From a virus, in the IMG/VR virus record IMGVR_UViG_3300025466_000099, positions 1-36,027 of that record: a stretch of 36,027 nucleotides of DNA. One strand, 5' to 3'. The position numbers and the translations under genes are program-made. The first letter of the stretch is position 1; each line of letters opens with the position of its first letter. Shown piece by piece: positions 1 through 8,649 of the stretch. The notes beneath the pieces are model-generated. The model saw nothing but the letters and a program-made list of their open reading frames with translations, was not told where the DNA came from and did no database searches.

Positions 1-64
1 GATTGAGCCTGATGTCTTTGGCGTAATCCGGCAAAGAATTCTTGACTGTTTCAATAAAACTCAT
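1..64 (-). CDS. ahpD: AhpD-like alkylhydroperoxidase, N-terminus only (cut by window edge)
   Basis: Only the first 21 residues are inside the window; the gene continues beyond position 1. The visible peptide starts MSFIETVKNSLPDYAKDIRL, the typical opening of AhpD and carboxymuconolactone-decarboxylase-family proteins. An AAGGAG ribosome-binding site lies just before the ATG, and the gene starts 11 bases after ahpC, so the two form an operon. AhpD proteins recycle AhpC through a CxxC thiol pair coupled to lipoylated dehydrogenase subunits. That active site is outside the window, so the call rests on the N-terminus and the AhpC neighbour. Confidence 0.72.
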   Translation of the reverse strand, partial: MSFIETVKNSLPDYAKDIRLN

Positions 65-75
65 GACGTTTCTCC

Positions 76-621
76 TTATACCGACAGTGTTTGGCCGCCA
101 ATGGCACGATTACATGCACAAAGTTCTCCCGTTTGGCAGGAATCCAATACACGAAGTGTTTCTTCAGGATTTCGACCCACATCCAAGTTGTTGACAGTGA
201 CATGCTGAATAACATTGTTGGGATCAACGACAAATGTGGCACGCAGAGCGGCGCCAGCAGGAGCATAGAACGCGCCCAATTGATTGATAAGGCTGCGTTC
301 GTCCCGCGCGGTATCTGCAAACTGTGTATGGGTAATCTTGGCCAAATCTGGATGAGCCTTCTGCCAAGCCACCTTGCAGAATTCATTATCGGTACTGCCG
401 GTGAGCAGCACTGCATCGCGATCGGCAAAATCCTGATTTAGTTTGTCGTAGGCCACGATCTCTGAAGGGCAAACAAAGGTAAAGTCCTTCGGGTAGTAAA
501 CAATCACCTTCCACTTGCCTGCAAAACTGTTTTGGTCGATGGTAAAGAAAGCATCATCCGGCTGTCCCGGTTTGACTCCAACAATCTCAAACGCTTCTAA
601 CGTATCTCCTACTGTTTTCAT
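76..621 (-). CDS. ahpC: 2-Cys peroxiredoxin AhpC
   Basis: 181 residues, a full-length typical 2-Cys peroxiredoxin that reduces hydrogen peroxide and organic peroxides. The peroxidatic Cys51 sits in DFTFVCPSE, the supporting Arg127 in LRATF, and the C-terminal GELCACN supplies Cys168 and Cys170, the resolving arrangement known from actinobacterial AhpC that is recycled by AhpD. A second 2-Cys feature, Cys162, lies just upstream. The start ATG follows a GGGGATTACC leader. ahpD follows on the same strand 11 bases later. An OxyR-type operator lies 107 to 143 bases upstream, so expression is probably peroxide-induced by the host regulator. No NATAAATA late promoter is nearby. The pair looks recruited from a bacterial genome with its control region. 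AhpC is an unusual cargo for a T4-like phage. Confidence 0.95.
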   Translation of the reverse strand: MKTVGDTLEAFEIVGVKPGQPDDAFFTIDQNSFAGKWKVIVYYPKDFTFVCPSEIVAYDKLNQDFADRDAVLLTGSTDNEFCKVAWQKAHPDLAKITHTQFADTARDERSLINQLGAFYAPAGAALRATFVVDPNNVIQHVTVNNLDVGRNPEETLRVLDSCQTGELCACNRAIGGQTLSV

Positions 622-700
622 GGTAATCCCCTATTGTGTGTAGTTGTGTGTTAATACCTATTATTAACTATCACACTAATTTAGCATTTTATACACACTA

Positions 701-728
701 AATCTATGGATTTTTGATGGTTTTTCAA
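701..728 (-). promoter_or_regulatory. candidate sigma70-type promoter of ahpC
   Basis: On the minus strand TTGAAA (723-728) is followed after 16 bases by TAGATT (701-706). The -35 element overlaps the edge of the OxyR-type operator, where OxyR-activated promoters usually keep it. An alternative -10 (TATAAAA at 687-693) cannot be excluded. Confidence 0.35.
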
Positions 729-764
729 TACTTTGATTCTATTGCAGCAATAGGCAATGTCTAT
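728..764. promoter_or_regulatory. OxyR-type operator upstream of ahpC
   Basis: The plus strand reads ATAC-N7-CTAT-N7-ATAG-N7-CTAT. The published OxyR consensus has four tetranucleotides ATAG/CTAT/ATAG/CTAT spaced by seven bases. Here 15 of the 16 core positions match with exact spacing. The extra T and A positions inside the outer spacers of the consensus are only partly kept. The site lies between the tmRNA terminator and ahpC and would be read by a host OxyR, since no regulator gene is in the window. Confidence 0.72.
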
Positions 765-766
765 TG

Positions 767-800
767 AAAAATAAAAATAATAGGAGCCGAAGCTCCTATT
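767..800 (-). terminator. intrinsic terminator of the tmRNA transcript
   Basis: A perfect 9-bp stem AATAGGAGC/GCTCCTATT (779-800) closed by a TTCG tetraloop on the minus strand, followed by a T-rich run (TTTTTATTTTT). It directly follows the coding half of the permuted tmRNA. Confidence 0.92.
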
Positions 801-1087
801 ACTAACCTTTCTGTTACCAAGCGGTTAACTCTGGAAAACTACACCGTTATTAGGCGGCTAGTGCCATGTGGTAATTGCTATCGTTTGCATTTACTTTTTT
901 TTGTGCTGATTACGTCAGTCACCTTTCGGACGCATTGAGTGTATTACGCAGCCTGTCGAAACCGATATGCCCCATAGTTGGTGGAGCATCGGGGAATCGA
1001 ACCCCGGTCCAAACTGATTTTAGTTCAATGTTTACGTCGTTTATGAGTTGCGTCCAAAACGCTTTTAGCTAAGAGTTTACTACCATT
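779..1087 (-). ncRNA. ssrA: circularly permuted (two-piece) tmRNA, tag ANDSNYHMALAA
   Basis: Read on the minus strand, the acceptor half comes first. Its T arm CGGGG-TTCGATT-CCCCG is followed by the 3' acceptor strand ATGCTCC (983-989), discriminator A and encoded CCA (979-981). After five bases the coding half begins with GGGGCAT (967-973), which pairs with ATGCTCC and includes the G3-U wobble read by alanyl-tRNA synthetase, then GGTTTCGAC of the D-loop region. A second cross-piece helix pairs CAGGCTG (949-955) with CAGTTTG (1010-1016). The tag frame at 853-888 encodes ANDSNYHMALAA, then two stop codons (847-852); the resume codon is GCA after AGTAAAT. A late promoter lies just upstream and an intrinsic terminator just downstream. 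The RNA rescues stalled ribosomes with SmpB, which is not in the window. The loop between CCA and GGGG would be removed, giving two RNA pieces. The 5' end is estimated from the promoter. Confidence 0.95.
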
Positions 1088-1092
1088 AAGCG

Positions 1093-1100
1093 TATTTATA
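1093..1100 (-). promoter_or_regulatory. T4-type late promoter for the tmRNA
   Basis: TATAAATA on the minus strand, an exact match to the T4 late consensus, placed directly before the acceptor half of the tmRNA. The motif lies in the loop of a perfect 7-bp inverted repeat (ATTAAGC 1085-1091, GCTTAAT 1104-1110). Confidence 0.65.
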
Positions 1101-3390: not shown

Positions 3391-3615
3391 TTAATCTGCT
3401 AAAAAATACTTAAGTTCTGTGTAGCCGCCAATCAGCTCTTCGTTGATAAAGATTTGAGGAACTGACCGTGCCGTAGGCACTTGTTCTAAAAGATCTTCCT
3501 TGCTATACCCATCTCCAATCTTTCTTTCCTCAAATTCAATGCCTTTGATTTCTAATAGACTTTTTGCCTGTTCGCAATAGCTGCAATTACTTTTGCTCCA
3601 AATTATCACTTTCAT
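3391..3615 (-). CDS. glutaredoxin, probable electron donor of the reductase
   Basis: 74 residues from MKVIIWSKSNCSYCEQAKSL. The start at 3615 is chosen because AAAGGAAA sits seven bases before it; the longer frame to 3645 would overlap the nrdB stop. Class I glutaredoxin features are complete: the CSYC redox motif near residues 11-14, the cis-proline segment SVPQIFI, and the GGYTEL glutathione-binding turn. Length is typical of phage and NrdH/Grx-type proteins. It sits 10 bases after nrdB, and T4 likewise encodes a glutaredoxin-like reductant (NrdC) for its ribonucleotide reductase. The role here is most likely to reduce the NrdA C-terminal cysteine pair. Confidence 0.93.
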   Translation of the reverse strand: MKVIIWSKSNCSYCEQAKSLLEIKGIEFEERKIGDGYSKEDLLEQVPTARSVPQIFINEELIGGYTELKYFLAD

Positions 3616-3625
3616 TATTTTTCCT

Positions 3626-4720
3626 TTAGAGATCCGGTAGTTCATGGTAATTAATATCAGAACTCATAGCCCCTACTACATAATTGGTTGATTCAGTTTC
3701 TTGTAAAGCACTCTGTTTTTTATTGATTTGAGTATGTTTATTGAACCAAGGTATAGGATTTGACTTGGGATATTCTTCCAAATATTTGATTCCAATATCC
3801 TTCAATCTGGTAAAGGCGGTCCAATCCACAAAGTCCTTGAGGATATTGGAATTGAGTCCAATTACCACGCCCTTTTTAAAAAGATAATCGGCCCAACTTT
3901 TTTCTTCCTTGATCACTTCCATGTACATGGCATAAACTTCGTCACGGCATTCCTGTTCCAGTTTTACAAAGTCAGGATCATCCTTGCCTACATTGTTAAT
4001 TATCCATGCAGTCCATTCGGCGTGTAACAATTCATCCTGCAATATCAAGCTGATGATGTTGCCGTTACCGATATAGATTTTATTTTCTACCATGGCCAGG
4101 CTGGTAGCAAAACTGACCATGAATCTAAACGCTTCCAGCGCATAGCTGGCGTTTAGTGCCAACCAGATAGCTCGTTTATGATCATGCACAGAAACCTTTT
4201 CTCCCAATTCTTTGCGACAATTCAAAGTATGCAGGTCTTCATAATATCGACCAATGTTGGCCGCCATGTCTATGATTTCTTTGGTATCGTGTATTTTGTT
4301 GAACTCATCTTTGGGAACGCCATACACATTGCGTATGATATGACTGTAGGACTTGCTGTGTATGTTTGTTTCAAAGAAACTCCACACATTGACAAGAGAT
4401 TCCATTTCCGGAACACTAACTACTGGACTAAAGATCTGCGAAGGAGCGCGTCCTTGAATACTATCTAACGCAGTTTGTCTTAAGAGATTGCTGGTAAAAA
4501 TATGTTTGACTGCATCACTGGCATCTTTATGATCCATCTTGTCTTTGGTAAGACTGATTTCTTCAGGAACCCAAAAAAAACCTCTTTGTAACTCCTCGAA
4601 CTTGGCTATCTTGGGAAATCGAAATTCTTCAAATCGCTGAACAGTGACTGCCCCGTCAAGAAACATTTTTCTCTTGAGGTAATTGGTTTTATTTGTTAAA
4701 TCGTATTGACCTTTACTCAT
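3626..4720 (-). CDS. nrdB: class I ribonucleotide reductase small subunit
   Basis: 364 residues, the usual length. It makes the tyrosyl radical needed by NrdA to reduce ribonucleotides. The di-iron ligands are recognisable: Asp86 in LDSIQG, Glu117, His121, Glu196 in EAFRFMVSFA, Glu230 and His233 in DELLH, with the radical Tyr125 in HSKSYSH. The first ligand helix reads ETNIH, so Glu117 and His121 are four apart, whereas the Escherichia coli protein has ETIH with a spacing of three; all other spacings match. The start has AAGGATATAAC before it, and nine bases separate it from the nrdA C-terminal piece. Absence of a late promoter fits an early operon. Confidence 0.96.
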   Translation of the reverse strand: MSKGQYDLTNKTNYLKRKMFLDGAVTVQRFEEFRFPKIAKFEELQRGFFWVPEEISLTKDKMDHKDASDAVKHIFTSNLLRQTALDSIQGRAPSQIFSPVVSVPEMESLVNVWSFFETNIHSKSYSHIIRNVYGVPKDEFNKIHDTKEIIDMAANIGRYYEDLHTLNCRKELGEKVSVHDHKRAIWLALNASYALEAFRFMVSFATSLAMVENKIYIGNGNIISLILQDELLHAEWTAWIINNVGKDDPDFVKLEQECRDEVYAMYMEVIKEEKSWADYLFKKGVVIGLNSNILKDFVDWTAFTRLKDIGIKYLEEYPKSNPIPWFNKHTQINKKQSALQETESTNYVVGAMSSDINYHELPDL

Positions 4721-4729
4721 GTTATATCC

Positions 4730-6586
4730 TTATAGTTTACAGGATTCGCATGAATCCTCATCCTCGATTGATTTAATAGGAACGATGACCTTTGTAACTT
4801 CGCTGTGTGTATTCAAAATATTCTTGCTGCCAGTTTTACTTATTAAACTGTAGTAGATGGTTTTCAACCCCCAACGATAGGCCAACATTAAATTTTTGGC
4901 GATCAGCGTGCCTGGAATCTTACCGTCCTTGAAATGTGCCGGAGAATAAAAGGTATTGGTAGAAATGCTTTGATCAATATAGGCAGCTAACACTGCAGCC
5001 GTTTTCAAGTATTCCACACAGTCCTTTTGATTCCACATCAATTGATATCTATTCTTTAGACGTTTGTATTCCGGCACTACCTGGACAAAGCTGCCCGCTT
5101 TGCTTTCCTTGACACTGATCAATTCCATAGGCATTTCAATACCATTGGTACTGTTAAGTACTACTGAACTGGATTCTACAGGAGCAATGGCCATTAGAGT
5201 AGCATTGCGTATGCCGTACTGTTTCATGTTAACCCGCAAATTTTCCCAGTCCAAATTGCCGCTGGGTTCAAAATTGGTAAGTTCGTCCACATTTGGGTTA
5301 CGCCTTTCCCAAGGAAATATTCCTTGTCCGTAATAGGTATGTTGACTGCGTTTGCAGGATCCTCGCTCCTGTGCCAGTTCCACACTGATTTCGGTAAGAT
5401 AAAAAGCCTGATGCTCCATCCATCGTTTGACTTCTTTGAGAGCAGATGATTCACCATATTTGAGATTGCGGCGTGCATGCCAATAGGCCAGATTGGTGAT
5501 GCCAACTCCTAGTGGTTCAAAATCTTGATTGGCCAATTGGCTTTGCACAGATAGAAAGTCTTGATAGCTCAAAAGATTGCTCAAACTACGAACCAGCACT
5601 CGACAGGCCTTGCGCATCTGTTGAGGACTGGTAAAAGCTCCCCAATTGATTGATCCAAGAGTGCAAAGAGAGATCCTGCCGTTTTCGTCTTCAATACGTT
5701 GGAATGGACGAGTGGGCAACAAGATTTCTTGGCAGAGATTACTTTGATATATAGGATCAGTCAAGGTATTAAAGGGTCCTTGATTAATCACATTGTCAAT
5801 ATTGACAAGATAAATCCTGCCAGTATCTGTTCGTTCTTTGAGTATTCCATTTTTAAAGATTTCTTCAGCAGAAACCACTTTCTTCTTGACAAACTTATCC
5901 TGTTCGTAAAAATGATAAAGTTTCTCAAATTCCTTACTGTCTCTATAATAGGCCTCGTAAAGATCAGGAACCTCATGCGGATCAAACAATGTTATATTTT
6001 CATTGTTTTTGTAACGGCGCCAAAACAGTGATGATACCACTACTGAATAATCCATTTGTCGCACACGGTTTTCTTCGGTTCCTTGATTGTTTTTCAACAC
6101 AATCAAATCTTCAAATTGAGCATGCCAAATTGGAAATGTCACAGTGCAACTGGCATTACGTATGCCACCTTGGCTATTGTGAGTCAGAACCATTGGGCCT
6201 TCTTTATTAGAAGATGCAAAAAATGTGTGAGTATCTTCTACCGTGATATCGATATAATTTTCATCATTGTCTTGCACAAAGTCAGCAGTTAATAACCTAG
6301 TGAATCCTCCTTCGGTTAATACTCGATCTTCAGTGTTAATAGTCTTTGGTAATTTTTGAACAAATGATCCCGTCTGATCCAGGCACATTATTGGATGATT
6401 TACGGAACAATTTAGTACTACACCATTTTCAAATTCCAATCGAACTTGGTCTTCTTGTTTGACAACAGTTTCCCATTTATTGGTAATTGTTTTAAAAACA
6501 ATCGTGCCTGTTTCGTCTTTACTCTTAATCTTCATACCTACTGCTAGGTCTTTAATTTGAATTTTTTTAGTTTTTACTATTTTCAT
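4730..6586 (-). CDS. nrdA: C-intein fused to the C-terminal part of ribonucleotide reductase NrdA
   Basis: 618 residues. Residues 1-137 are the C-terminal part of a split intein: a block B-like NCSVNHPIM (59-67), block F DITVEDTHTFFA (113-124) and block G VLTHN ending at Asn137. The next residue Ser138 starts the extein at SQGGIRNAS, which continues the reductase exactly where Escherichia coli NrdA reads SCSQGGVRGG. Residues 138-618 carry the rest of the catalytic subunit, including the active-site cysteines in NLCQEI and SLCTLG, the radical-transfer pair TIYY, and a C-terminal redox pair CESCKL. The start overlaps the end of the homing endonuclease by 20 bases. The reductase needs the N-terminal half at 7705-8649, joined by protein trans-splicing. 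Confidence 0.93.
   Translation of the reverse strand: MKIVKTKKIQIKDLAVGMKIKSKDETGTIVFKTITNKWETVVKQEDQVRLEFENGVVLNCSVNHPIMCLDQTGSFVQKLPKTINTEDRVLTEGGFTRLLTADFVQDNDENYIDITVEDTHTFFASSNKEGPMVLTHNSQGGIRNASCTVTFPIWHAQFEDLIVLKNNQGTEENRVRQMDYSVVVSSLFWRRYKNNENITLFDPHEVPDLYEAYYRDSKEFEKLYHFYEQDKFVKKKVVSAEEIFKNGILKERTDTGRIYLVNIDNVINQGPFNTLTDPIYQSNLCQEILLPTRPFQRIEDENGRISLCTLGSINWGAFTSPQQMRKACRVLVRSLSNLLSYQDFLSVQSQLANQDFEPLGVGITNLAYWHARRNLKYGESSALKEVKRWMEHQAFYLTEISVELAQERGSCKRSQHTYYGQGIFPWERRNPNVDELTNFEPSGNLDWENLRVNMKQYGIRNATLMAIAPVESSSVVLNSTNGIEMPMELISVKESKAGSFVQVVPEYKRLKNRYQLMWNQKDCVEYLKTAAVLAAYIDQSISTNTFYSPAHFKDGKIPGTLIAKNLMLAYRWGLKTIYYSLISKTGSKNILNTHSEVTKVIVPIKSIEDEDSCESCKL
6176..6586 (-). other. C-intein, 137 residues
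   Basis: Contains block B, F and G motifs and the terminal His-Asn before Ser+1. Its N-terminus is strongly basic (MKIVKTKKIQIK), complementary to the acidic end of the N-intein, as is common in split inteins. Because block B is on this side, the split lies just after block A. Confidence 0.88.
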
Positions 6587-7661
6587 AATCTTCTTTTGTT
6601 ATTGTTTCAATGTCGTTAAACTTAGTAGACATTTCAAATTGGCTGACCTTTAATACTGTTTTACCTCTAGTTTTTCTGTAATATTGATCTAGTAAATCTT
6701 TTGACTTAAAAAACTTACCGTCTACTTTGTAGAAAACTTTAGTGGCTAAATTAGCATAGTCATTCGAATTTGTTTGATATTCTTCTTTGCTTATTGTAAC
6801 ATTTTTTCTTTTAGGAATTGAGTAAACTGCTACATTCCCGGTATTATGATGCTCATATAACTTTTTATCGTAGTGTTCTTTTTTCACTAGTTTCCGTTCA
6901 CCGGTGATCTTATCTACTACCGGTACTAGACCAAACGTGTTTCCTACATATCTACCATTTGAATTTTTAAATTTATCTTTGGTAATAGATACTCTTGATT
7001 TAGTAACGGTGTCATACGCAACTACTAATCCTTTTGTTATTCCTACATACCTGCTGTCACTATCAAACTCAGATTTTGGAATTCTACAAGTTTTCTCAGT
7101 AACAGTATCCAATGCTAAGACATAATCTTTAAATTCAGTAGAGTGAATATTAGGATCAAAGTCAGTAGTAAATATCTTTTTAATCCCTAATTCTGTTCGA
7201 ATGTTCATCATGCCTTTTGAAACATGCATATGGTTTCCTGTAGCAAATTCTTCTACTGACACTCGATATGTGTTGCCTTCTATATCTTTACACAAAACCG
7301 AACCTGCTCCGCAGTTTGTTCCGCCGGCAGTAAGAGAATTTAAAAAACTAGGATTTCTACCAACTTGATGCTTTTGATGAAACGCTTTTTCTGCGACAAA
7401 GGCATCACTCCTAGTCTTAAAATATTCCACTCGGTATTCAAATGTATAGGGGAACTTTTTTAGTTTTTCTTTAAAATCTACTACAGTTGAACTAGTAAAA
7501 TATTTTACCAGCAAATCGTGCTTATTGCTGCCTTCTACTCCACGAGACCCCGAATAAAACTTTCCAGTTTTGGCGTCTTTTAAAGTATAACAATAATAAG
7601 CAGAATTTGTTAGCATATTTGTTATTGATCCATTATATGATTCATTTAGATAATCTAGCAT
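6567..7661 (-). CDS. GIY-YIG-type homing endonuclease with repeated DNA-binding modules
   Basis: 364 residues from MLDYLNESYNG. The start at 7661 follows GGAGG by eight bases; the longer frame to 7676 would place the start upstream of that site. The N-terminal 115 residues resemble GIY-YIG nucleases: AYYCYTL, then GKFYSGSRG with the usual Arg, a Glu in FVAEKAFHQ and an Asn in FLNSLTAGG. The remainder holds about five imperfect modules of roughly 30-33 residues with the pattern (V/L)-x-x-D-x-x-(T/G)-x-(x)-x-R-V-(S/P)-(I/K)-x-(K/E)-(E/D)-(F/Y), likely DNA-contacting repeats. It sits between the two halves of nrdA and overlaps the second by 20 bases. It presumably spreads the intein locus by cutting intein-free nrdA genes. 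Its ribosome-binding site lies within a hairpin (see 7661-7699). Confidence 0.8.
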   Translation of the reverse strand: MLDYLNESYNGSITNMLTNSAYYCYTLKDAKTGKFYSGSRGVEGSNKHDLLVKYFTSSTVVDFKEKLKKFPYTFEYRVEYFKTRSDAFVAEKAFHQKHQVGRNPSFLNSLTAGGTNCGAGSVLCKDIEGNTYRVSVEEFATGNHMHVSKGMMNIRTELGIKKIFTTDFDPNIHSTEFKDYVLALDTVTEKTCRIPKSEFDSDSRYVGITKGLVVAYDTVTKSRVSITKDKFKNSNGRYVGNTFGLVPVVDKITGERKLVKKEHYDKKLYEHHNTGNVAVYSIPKRKNVTISKEEYQTNSNDYANLATKVFYKVDGKFFKSKDLLDQYYRKTRGKTVLKVSQFEMSTKFNDIETITKEDYENSKN

Positions 7662-7699
7662 TTCGCATACCTCCATAGTATTTATGCTGGTATGCGAAA
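7661..7699 (-). promoter_or_regulatory. hairpin sequestering the homing endonuclease start, with a late promoter in its loop
   Basis: A perfect 11-bp inverted repeat, TTTCGCATACC (7661-7671) and GGTATGCGAAA (7689-7699). On the minus-strand RNA the 3' arm runs from the last two bases of the GGAGG site (7670-7674) to the A of the ATG (7661), so read-through transcripts would hide the start. The loop contains CATAAATA (7679-7686), a late-promoter-like octamer, so transcripts starting there would lack the 5' arm. Confidence 0.75.
7679..7686 (-). promoter_or_regulatory. T4-type late promoter for the homing endonuclease
   Basis: CATAAATA on the minus strand, 18 bases before the chosen start codon, located in the hairpin loop. 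The predicted start of transcription falls at or just before the GGAGG site. Confidence 0.55.
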
Positions 7700-7704
7700 A
7701 ACTA

Positions 7705-8649
7705 TTACTTATCCTCAGAATCTCCTTCGTCTATAATTTCTACCCAAGTGTCAGGAGTTACACAACAACTACGTAGATCTGCGAACCATTTCTTTAAAAA
7801 GGGCACTAGTCCTGTATGTTTGATCTCGCCATTGCGAATTGGCGCCCCTAAGGGTCGTATTCTGCCTATTTCCAGACCAATTCCGGCTCGTTTTGATGCA
7901 TATTTGGCCATCATTTCGCCGGCTGCAAAGATGCTGTCCAAAGTATCGTCACTGCTGATTAAAACGCAGCTGGAAAATTGTTTGGTAGTGGTTCCCAATC
8001 CGGCAAGCACAGGAGTGGCCAAGGTAAAATGGCCGTCGCTGGCACATTCATAATATTCTTTGACCAATTTCAATCTAGCATCTTTGGGCTCGGCATGGAA
8101 CGCTGTGGCGGCTGCAACAGCGTATCGCACTTGGGGAGTTTCAAAAACCTGACCAGTGGCACGATTTTGCACTAGATATTTTTCTGTCAGCTGTGCGATA
8201 GCTGCATAGGTATAATCTTCGTCCTTGCTGTGATCTATAAAAAGATCAATGATATTCCATTCGTCTTCGGTATACCATTCTAAAAGAGCAGGAGTATACA
8301 TGCCAAGTTCGATATTTTTTTTCACAATTGAGAAAAGTTTTGGAGGTGTGTAGGTTCCGTAAACTTCTTTTCGCAGCATGCTGACTCTTTGCCTGCCCGC
8401 CACATACTGATAATTGGTGTTGTTGATCTCGGGGTTTTCATTTTCGTCAATTAAATTTACCATGGCCTTGAGCAACAATTCATCTATGGTCTTGGTACTC
8501 ATTCCATCATGCAGTTCCAACTGGGCTTTGATCTCAATCATTGACGGACTCACGCTGTCAATTCCTCTACAATCATACGCCACCTGTCTTTGGATTTTTG
8601 AAATGTCTAACGGTACTCTTTCTCCGTTACGTTTAACCACTGTGATCAT
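7705..8649 (-). CDS. nrdA: N-terminal part of ribonucleotide reductase NrdA fused to a short N-intein
   Basis: 314 residues. Residues 1-295 are the start of the class I reductase large subunit: an ATP-cone-like N-terminus (VVKRNGERVPLDISKI), the active-site cysteine in FSSCVLIS, and AGIGLEIGRIRPLGAPIRNG of the substrate and effector region. At residue 296 the intein begins as CVTPDTWVEI, a block A motif with catalytic Cys1, and the frame stops after 19 intein residues ending in an acidic tail. The N-terminal extein ends LRSC, and its partner at 4730-6586 resumes with SQGG. AAAAGG lies before the start. No late promoter is seen, fitting early expression. Confidence 0.95.
   Translation of the reverse strand: MITVVKRNGERVPLDISKIQRQVAYDCRGIDSVSPSMIEIKAQLELHDGMSTKTIDELLLKAMVNLIDENENPEINNTNYQYVAGRQRVSMLRKEVYGTYTPPKLFSIVKKNIELGMYTPALLEWYTEDEWNIIDLFIDHSKDEDYTYAAIAQLTEKYLVQNRATGQVFETPQVRYAVAAATAFHAEPKDARLKLVKEYYECASDGHFTLATPVLAGLGTTTKQFSSCVLISSDDTLDSIFAAGEMMAKYASKRAGIGLEIGRIRPLGAPIRNGEIKHTGLVPFLKKWFADLRSCCVTPDTWVEIIDEGDSEDK
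7708..7764 (-). other. N-intein, 19 residues
   Basis: Begins with the nucleophile Cys1 and block A residues (CVTPDTW) and ends with the acidic stretch EGDSEDK before the stop. It is far shorter than the roughly 100-residue N-inteins of DnaE-type split inteins and resembles the atypical class with very short N-pieces, such as AceL-TerL. Confidence 0.88.

Follow-up and report, generated by a model that had tools for sequence, protein, structure and literature searches.

A conserved OxyR-type operator predicted upstream of the ahpC-ahpD operon in large aquatic phages

In this work, we analysed a 36,027-nucleotide stretch of phage DNA (IMG/VR record IMGVR_UViG_3300025466_000099, hereafter the window) and identified a putative OxyR-type operator upstream of a two-gene peroxide-detoxification operon, ahpC-ahpD. 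The site recurs upstream of ahpC in related phages, where it keeps a fixed register with the promoter; the phage AhpC proteins form a single clade, and LysR domains are absent from the relatives sampled. An OxyR-type operator ahead of the phage ahpCD operon had been proposed from the window alone, and that proposal is now well supported because of the conservation of the site, its fixed spacing from the promoter, the lack of a phage LysR protein and the presence of oxyR beside bacterial ahpC. The sign of control could be either activation or repression. That host OxyR acts at the predicted operator, with one sign or the other, is in our judgement likely.

Results

The ahpC-ahpD operon and its predicted operator

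The features at the start of the window are as follows.

Positions 1 to 64, minus strand: start of ahpD, which runs off the start of the window
Positions 76 to 621, minus strand: ahpC, encoding a 181-aa peroxiredoxin of the AhpD-dependent type (Pfam AhpC-TSA, 1.7e-20)
Positions 678 to 706, minus strand: predicted ahpC promoter, with a -35 box TAGATT (706-701), a 17-bp spacer and a -10 box TAAATT (683-678), 21 bp from the operator
Positions 717 to 720, minus strand: possible fifth phased tetranucleotide, CCAT, weakly suggested by the sequence and by relatives
Positions 728 to 764, minus strand: OxyR-type operator, read towards ahpC as ATAG (764-761), CTAT (753-750), ATAG (742-739) and GTAT (731-728), with N7 between them
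Positions 765 to 803, minus strand: intrinsic terminator of the tmRNA gene with a T-rich tail, abutting the operator and separating the tmRNA from it
Positions 777 to 1095, minus strand: permuted (two-piece) tmRNA of the betaproteobacterial type (Rfam RF04321, 3.6e-23, and RF01850, 9.4e-35; ARAGORN)

The window AhpC carries its peroxidatic cysteine, Cys51, in an FVCP motif and a C-terminal pair, Cys168/Cys170, in the sequence LCACN; its closest solved relative is the alkyl hydroperoxidase C structure 2bmx (3.3e-41). FVCP is present in all 56 phage AhpCs compared and CAC in 52 of the 56. Against the AhpC equivalog model TIGR03137 the protein scored 103 bits, below the curated cut-off of 272, and it is therefore not assigned to that equivalog. 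A complete ahpD was read from contig L002 (positions 5558-6064), which is identical to the window across the 5 kb upstream of ahpC. It encodes 168 aa with a C128-x-x-C131 motif; the AhpD core domain scores above its cut-off, and the match to the full-length NCBIfam ahpD model (5.9e-35, 120.7 bits) lies below that model's cut-off of 191.95. An AhpC/AhpD pair of the same kind is known from Burkholderia thailandensis (PMC6626918).

On the plus strand the operator reads ATAC-N7-CTAT-N7-ATAG-N7-CTAT. It agrees at 15 of 16 core positions, with exact 7-base spacers, with ATAG-N7-CTAT-N7-ATAG-N7-CTAT, the OxyR consensus of E. coli. Four tetranucleotides with this score and spacing at 728-764 were the core of the original prediction, and both the coordinates and the score were reproduced. 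A check for equally good matches found no other site of at least 13/16 in the 36-kb window; whole-window shuffles (n = 200) gave means of 0.19 matches at this level, 0.01 at 14 or more and 0 at 15 or more. When only the 200 bp upstream of ahpC were shuffled, 15/16 was reached in none of 20,000 trials. On a longer, 20-position consensus that also counts the T and A inside the half-sites, the window scored only 16/20 (shuffle p ~0.001) because these internal positions fit less well. With a matrix trained on 28 phage sites, the window being left out, the window site had a z of 5.1. The CCAT at 717-720 sits one helical turn further downstream, reads CTAT in several relatives and would possibly fit an extended LysR-type footprint.

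The site lies 106 bases from the ahpC ATG. An exact 16/16 scan of viral contigs returned 80 sites on 77 stretches, none of them near ahpC or ahpD, so that the motif alone is not evidence of function.

Conservation among related phages

Relatives of ahpC were found on at least 597 stretches in public viral contigs, and the best 80 were fetched. These derive from contigs of up to 524 kb and, except for L002, show 81-85% identity. Their upstream regions were reduced to 56 non-redundant ones with little 8-mer content in common. In nearly all relatives with room for it, ahpD adjoins ahpC or lies at most about 1.6 kb away with intervening DNA. No AhpC of at least 60% identity was present in the isolate phage collection, which yielded no cultured relative through this gene.

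Scored with the E. coli consensus alone, the 55 other phages had a mean best score of 10.91, compared with 9.56 +/- 0.11 in shuffles, and a score of 12 or more was reached in 18 of them (0.9 expected). A consensus-free motif search returned an element that runs from the second half of the site through an A-tract and the -35 box TTGATT into the spacer before the -10 box. The aligned phage sites follow AT[TA]G / C[TA]AT / AT[TA][AG] with an 11-bp pitch; the fourth tetranucleotide is weakly conserved, and the A- and T-tracts in the spacers are likewise conserved. The relaxed pattern ATWG/CWAT, which was suggested by and partly tuned on these same phages, occurred with at most one mismatch at 11 places in 20 phage records, nine of the 11 being ahpC sites.

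Promoter and register

Taken by itself, the window promoter at 706-678 matches the consensus poorly; it was placed there because TTGATT-17-TACAAT stands 20-22 bp after the site in the relatives, and it would put the transcription start at about 671. Other promoter-like hexamers in the window are TTGAAA (728-723) and the pair TAGACA-16-TAGAAT (763-736), which overlaps the operator. The -35-like hexamer originally described as adjoining the site is less secure than the site itself; promoter-like matches are at chance level locally (3 observed, 3.4 expected).

The register was analysed in the 56 phage regions with the promoter located separately from the site. A good OxyR-like site lies 19-22 bp before the conserved -35 box in 33 of the 56, the spacing being exactly 20 bp in 27 of 52; in eight further regions of the 56 it lies one helical turn closer (9-12 bp). 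The mean site score was 9.96 at the 20-bp spacing and below 8 at all other spacings tested. The distance from site to ATG varies, from about 79 to 139. A fixed register is what an operator working with its promoter would be expected to show, and we regard it as the strongest evidence in the analysis.

A recognisable site was absent from 13 of the 56 regions. Among these are L003, L004, L005 and L009, although in the AhpC tree no other sequences are closer to the window. In some other relatives ahpC stands close behind another gene. Probably, the operator is ancestral in these phages and was then lost several times. L003, L004, L005 and L009 have in common another promoter region upstream of ahpC, with GAGTATG-TTATACTC, which is possibly a different operator.

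Candidate regulator and origin of the operon

A phage-encoded OxyR was sought through the LysR helix-turn-helix domain (PF00126, E<=0.01), which was found in none of 23 related phage records, several of them fragments. In Legionella, Zymomonas and some Burkholderiales, a divergent LysR gene lies beside the ahpC orthologue. Six of these neighbouring LysR proteins were read, and all have a GHCL...C cysteine pair; one matches the OxyR structure 4x6g (1.4e-98). OxyR models were the best match for the three that were scanned, with scores below the curated cut-offs, so that "OxyR-like" is the strict term for these bacterial proteins. When the phage-site matrix was applied upstream of bacterial ahpC genes, 26 of the 58 regions had a z>2; these include L165 and L167, where the site is flanked by ahpC on one side and the divergent oxyR-like gene on the other. 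An OxyR-like protein occurs in 89 of 100 Burkholderiales genomes, in every case below the model's curated cut-off.

Phylogenetically, the phage AhpCs constitute one clade (support 100/100) nested in Burkholderiales sequences, as sister to Collimonas with moderate support. The window tmRNA has the betaproteobacterial model as its best match. Judged indirectly, from the tmRNA model and the AhpC tree, the host group is likely to be the Burkholderiales.

Neighbouring genes

The gene directly upstream of the ahpC operator is the tmRNA, with the tag peptide ANDSNYHMALAA; the original prediction had made no reference to it. The possibility that 728-764 is part of the tmRNA terminator was rejected, since the hairpin and its T-rich tail stop before the site. 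Permuted tmRNAs were predicted near or upstream of ahpC in L013, L024, L028, L043, L049, L073, L076 and L080 as well, so that tmRNA and ahpCD are paired in several phages. The tags of these relatives are unusually long, at 26-30 aa (e.g., ANAKAITTEAEVMTFTWDLPANESRYALAA in L028). The aquatic phage Melnitz (PMC9004378) also has a two-piece tmRNA of the permuted form; in contrast, the window tmRNA adjoins ahpCD and matches the betaproteobacterial model.

Further into the window, NrdA (4730-8649, minus strand) is split in two ORFs (profile positions 62-347 and 346-795). The ORF that splits it (6567-7676, 369 aa) has no Pfam or PHROG match and is perhaps a mobile endonuclease insertion or an intron. 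A glutaredoxin gene (3391-3645, minus strand) lies beside the ribonucleotide reductase gene nrdB. Among the relatives, ARAGORN listed CUA-anticodon tRNAs as Pyl in L011, L015, L017, L020, L026 and L039; these may be amber suppressor tRNAs.

Discussion

From these observations we infer a course of events that takes in OxyR binding, activation over repression, timing within infection, a benefit to the phage and the host group. An ancestral phage would have taken the ahpCD peroxide-detoxification cassette, with its LysR-type OxyR operator, from a burkholderial bacterium. The phage would make no OxyR; instead, host OxyR would bind the four phased tetranucleotides in the infected cell, with a weak sigma-70 promoter two helical turns downstream of it. 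Once oxidised by H2O2, OxyR would recruit host RNA polymerase and bring about transcription of ahpC and ahpD. AhpC (Cys51, Cys168/170) would then reduce peroxides and AhpD (CxxC) would recycle AhpC, and the removal of peroxide would protect replication and perhaps also the phage class Ia ribonucleotide reductase. We consider it probable, on the strength of sequence comparisons, that the cassette carries a bacterial operator and is activated by host OxyR. The original prediction had spoken of regulatory capture. The OxyR-type operator on phage ahpCD stands, but inheritance with a bacterial cassette, followed by retention, describes its history better; acquisition of ahpCD from a bacterium together with the operator, kept under selection, is the best reading.

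Activation is ranked ahead of repression on account of the position of the site, which leaves the conserved -35 box free. An operator that lies upstream of the -35 box, and not across it, is the usual layout for activation. The main rival has OxyR acting at the same operator chiefly as a repressor, the reduced form holding the ahpC promoter down and peroxide relieving it. There are grounds for this: OxyR represses ahpC in B. thailandensis, where binding was seen by EMSA (PMC6626918), at P22 gtr it may activate or repress according to the site (PMC2909390), and the pair TAGACA-16-TAGAAT overlaps the window site. However, that overlapping pair is no better than chance, and the relatives' site stands 20-22 bp upstream of the conserved -35 box without overlap; we therefore consider repression as the main mode rather unlikely. 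It is also conceivable, if quite improbable, that 728-764 is bound by a host regulator of the LysR type other than OxyR, or by a phage factor that recognises a similar sequence. The conserved A- and T-tracts of the spacers would suit such a factor, and the T-N11-A form is common to sites of the LysR family. Nevertheless, the spacing of the four tetranucleotides is that of OxyR, ahpC and ahpD are classic OxyR targets, oxyR lies beside the bacterial orthologues, and the 23 phage records held no LysR helix-turn-helix.

Activation by host OxyR must also be weighed against readings in which the site does nothing. If it were a functionless leftover of the donor promoter, its conservation would reflect common descent only, and the single phage AhpC clade and the loss of the site in some lineages would be accounted for. 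We regard this as very improbable, given that the site and its register persist though other intergenic DNA has diverged (56 regions with little shared 8-mer content), that the distance to the ATG has changed and that spacings one helical turn shorter recur. A chance match in AT-rich intergenic DNA is barely credible: the 80 exact matches that viral contigs contain away from any ahpC do speak for it, but the 0/20,000 result in shuffles and the family-wide recurrence at one place, that is, the conservation, contradict it.

The OxyR operators of bacterial ahpC genes, as represented by the E. coli consensus and by B. thailandensis ahpC (PMC6626918), likewise consist of four phased tetranucleotides upstream of the gene; in B. 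thailandensis, as in the phages, AhpC ends in a CxC motif and has AhpD for its reductant. The phages differ from these bacteria in that those sampled encode no OxyR and in that the first and third half-sites are ATTG-type. Use of the host peroxide regulator by a phage had been thought uncommon, but phage genes under OxyR are already known, namely P22 gtr (PMC2909390), Pf4 xisF4 (PMC12395586) and, as cited in PMC11281485, Mu mom (Bolker and Kahmann 1989). As these accounts present them, host OxyR acts on a phage-borne gene in all three, as proposed for ahpCD, and the genes serve O-antigen change, excision and DNA modification in phages that are temperate, filamentous or present as prophages; phage ahpCD, in contrast, is a peroxide-defence operon on contigs of up to 524 kb. 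Host stress regulators are similarly read by phage promoters in cyanophages, whose genes come under host PhoBR (PMC10976474), although there the signal is phosphate stress and the regulator a two-component system, whereas ahpCD would involve peroxide and a LysR regulator. Conserved sites for a host master regulator also occur in promoters of alphaproteobacterial phages (PMC9437464), but CtrA is a cell-cycle regulator with many sites per region, and phage ahpCD has a single operator at a single operon. No report of OxyR operators on phage ahpCD was found in the open-access literature searched.

More broadly, we see an even chance that widespread large aquatic phages switch on their own ahpCD through host OxyR only under oxidative stress, and that the operator and its helical register are under purifying selection. 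If true, these phages would read the redox state of the infected cell through a sensor that the host encodes, while the antioxidant response, in the form of detoxification genes, would be encoded by the virus. Peroxide would then join phosphate and the cell cycle as host signals wired to phage genes. The analysis provides a defined element of 37 bp and a promoter prediction, along with numerous naturally occurring variants, some without the site; with these it could be asked whether infection or the environment imposes a peroxide stress that limits phage growth.
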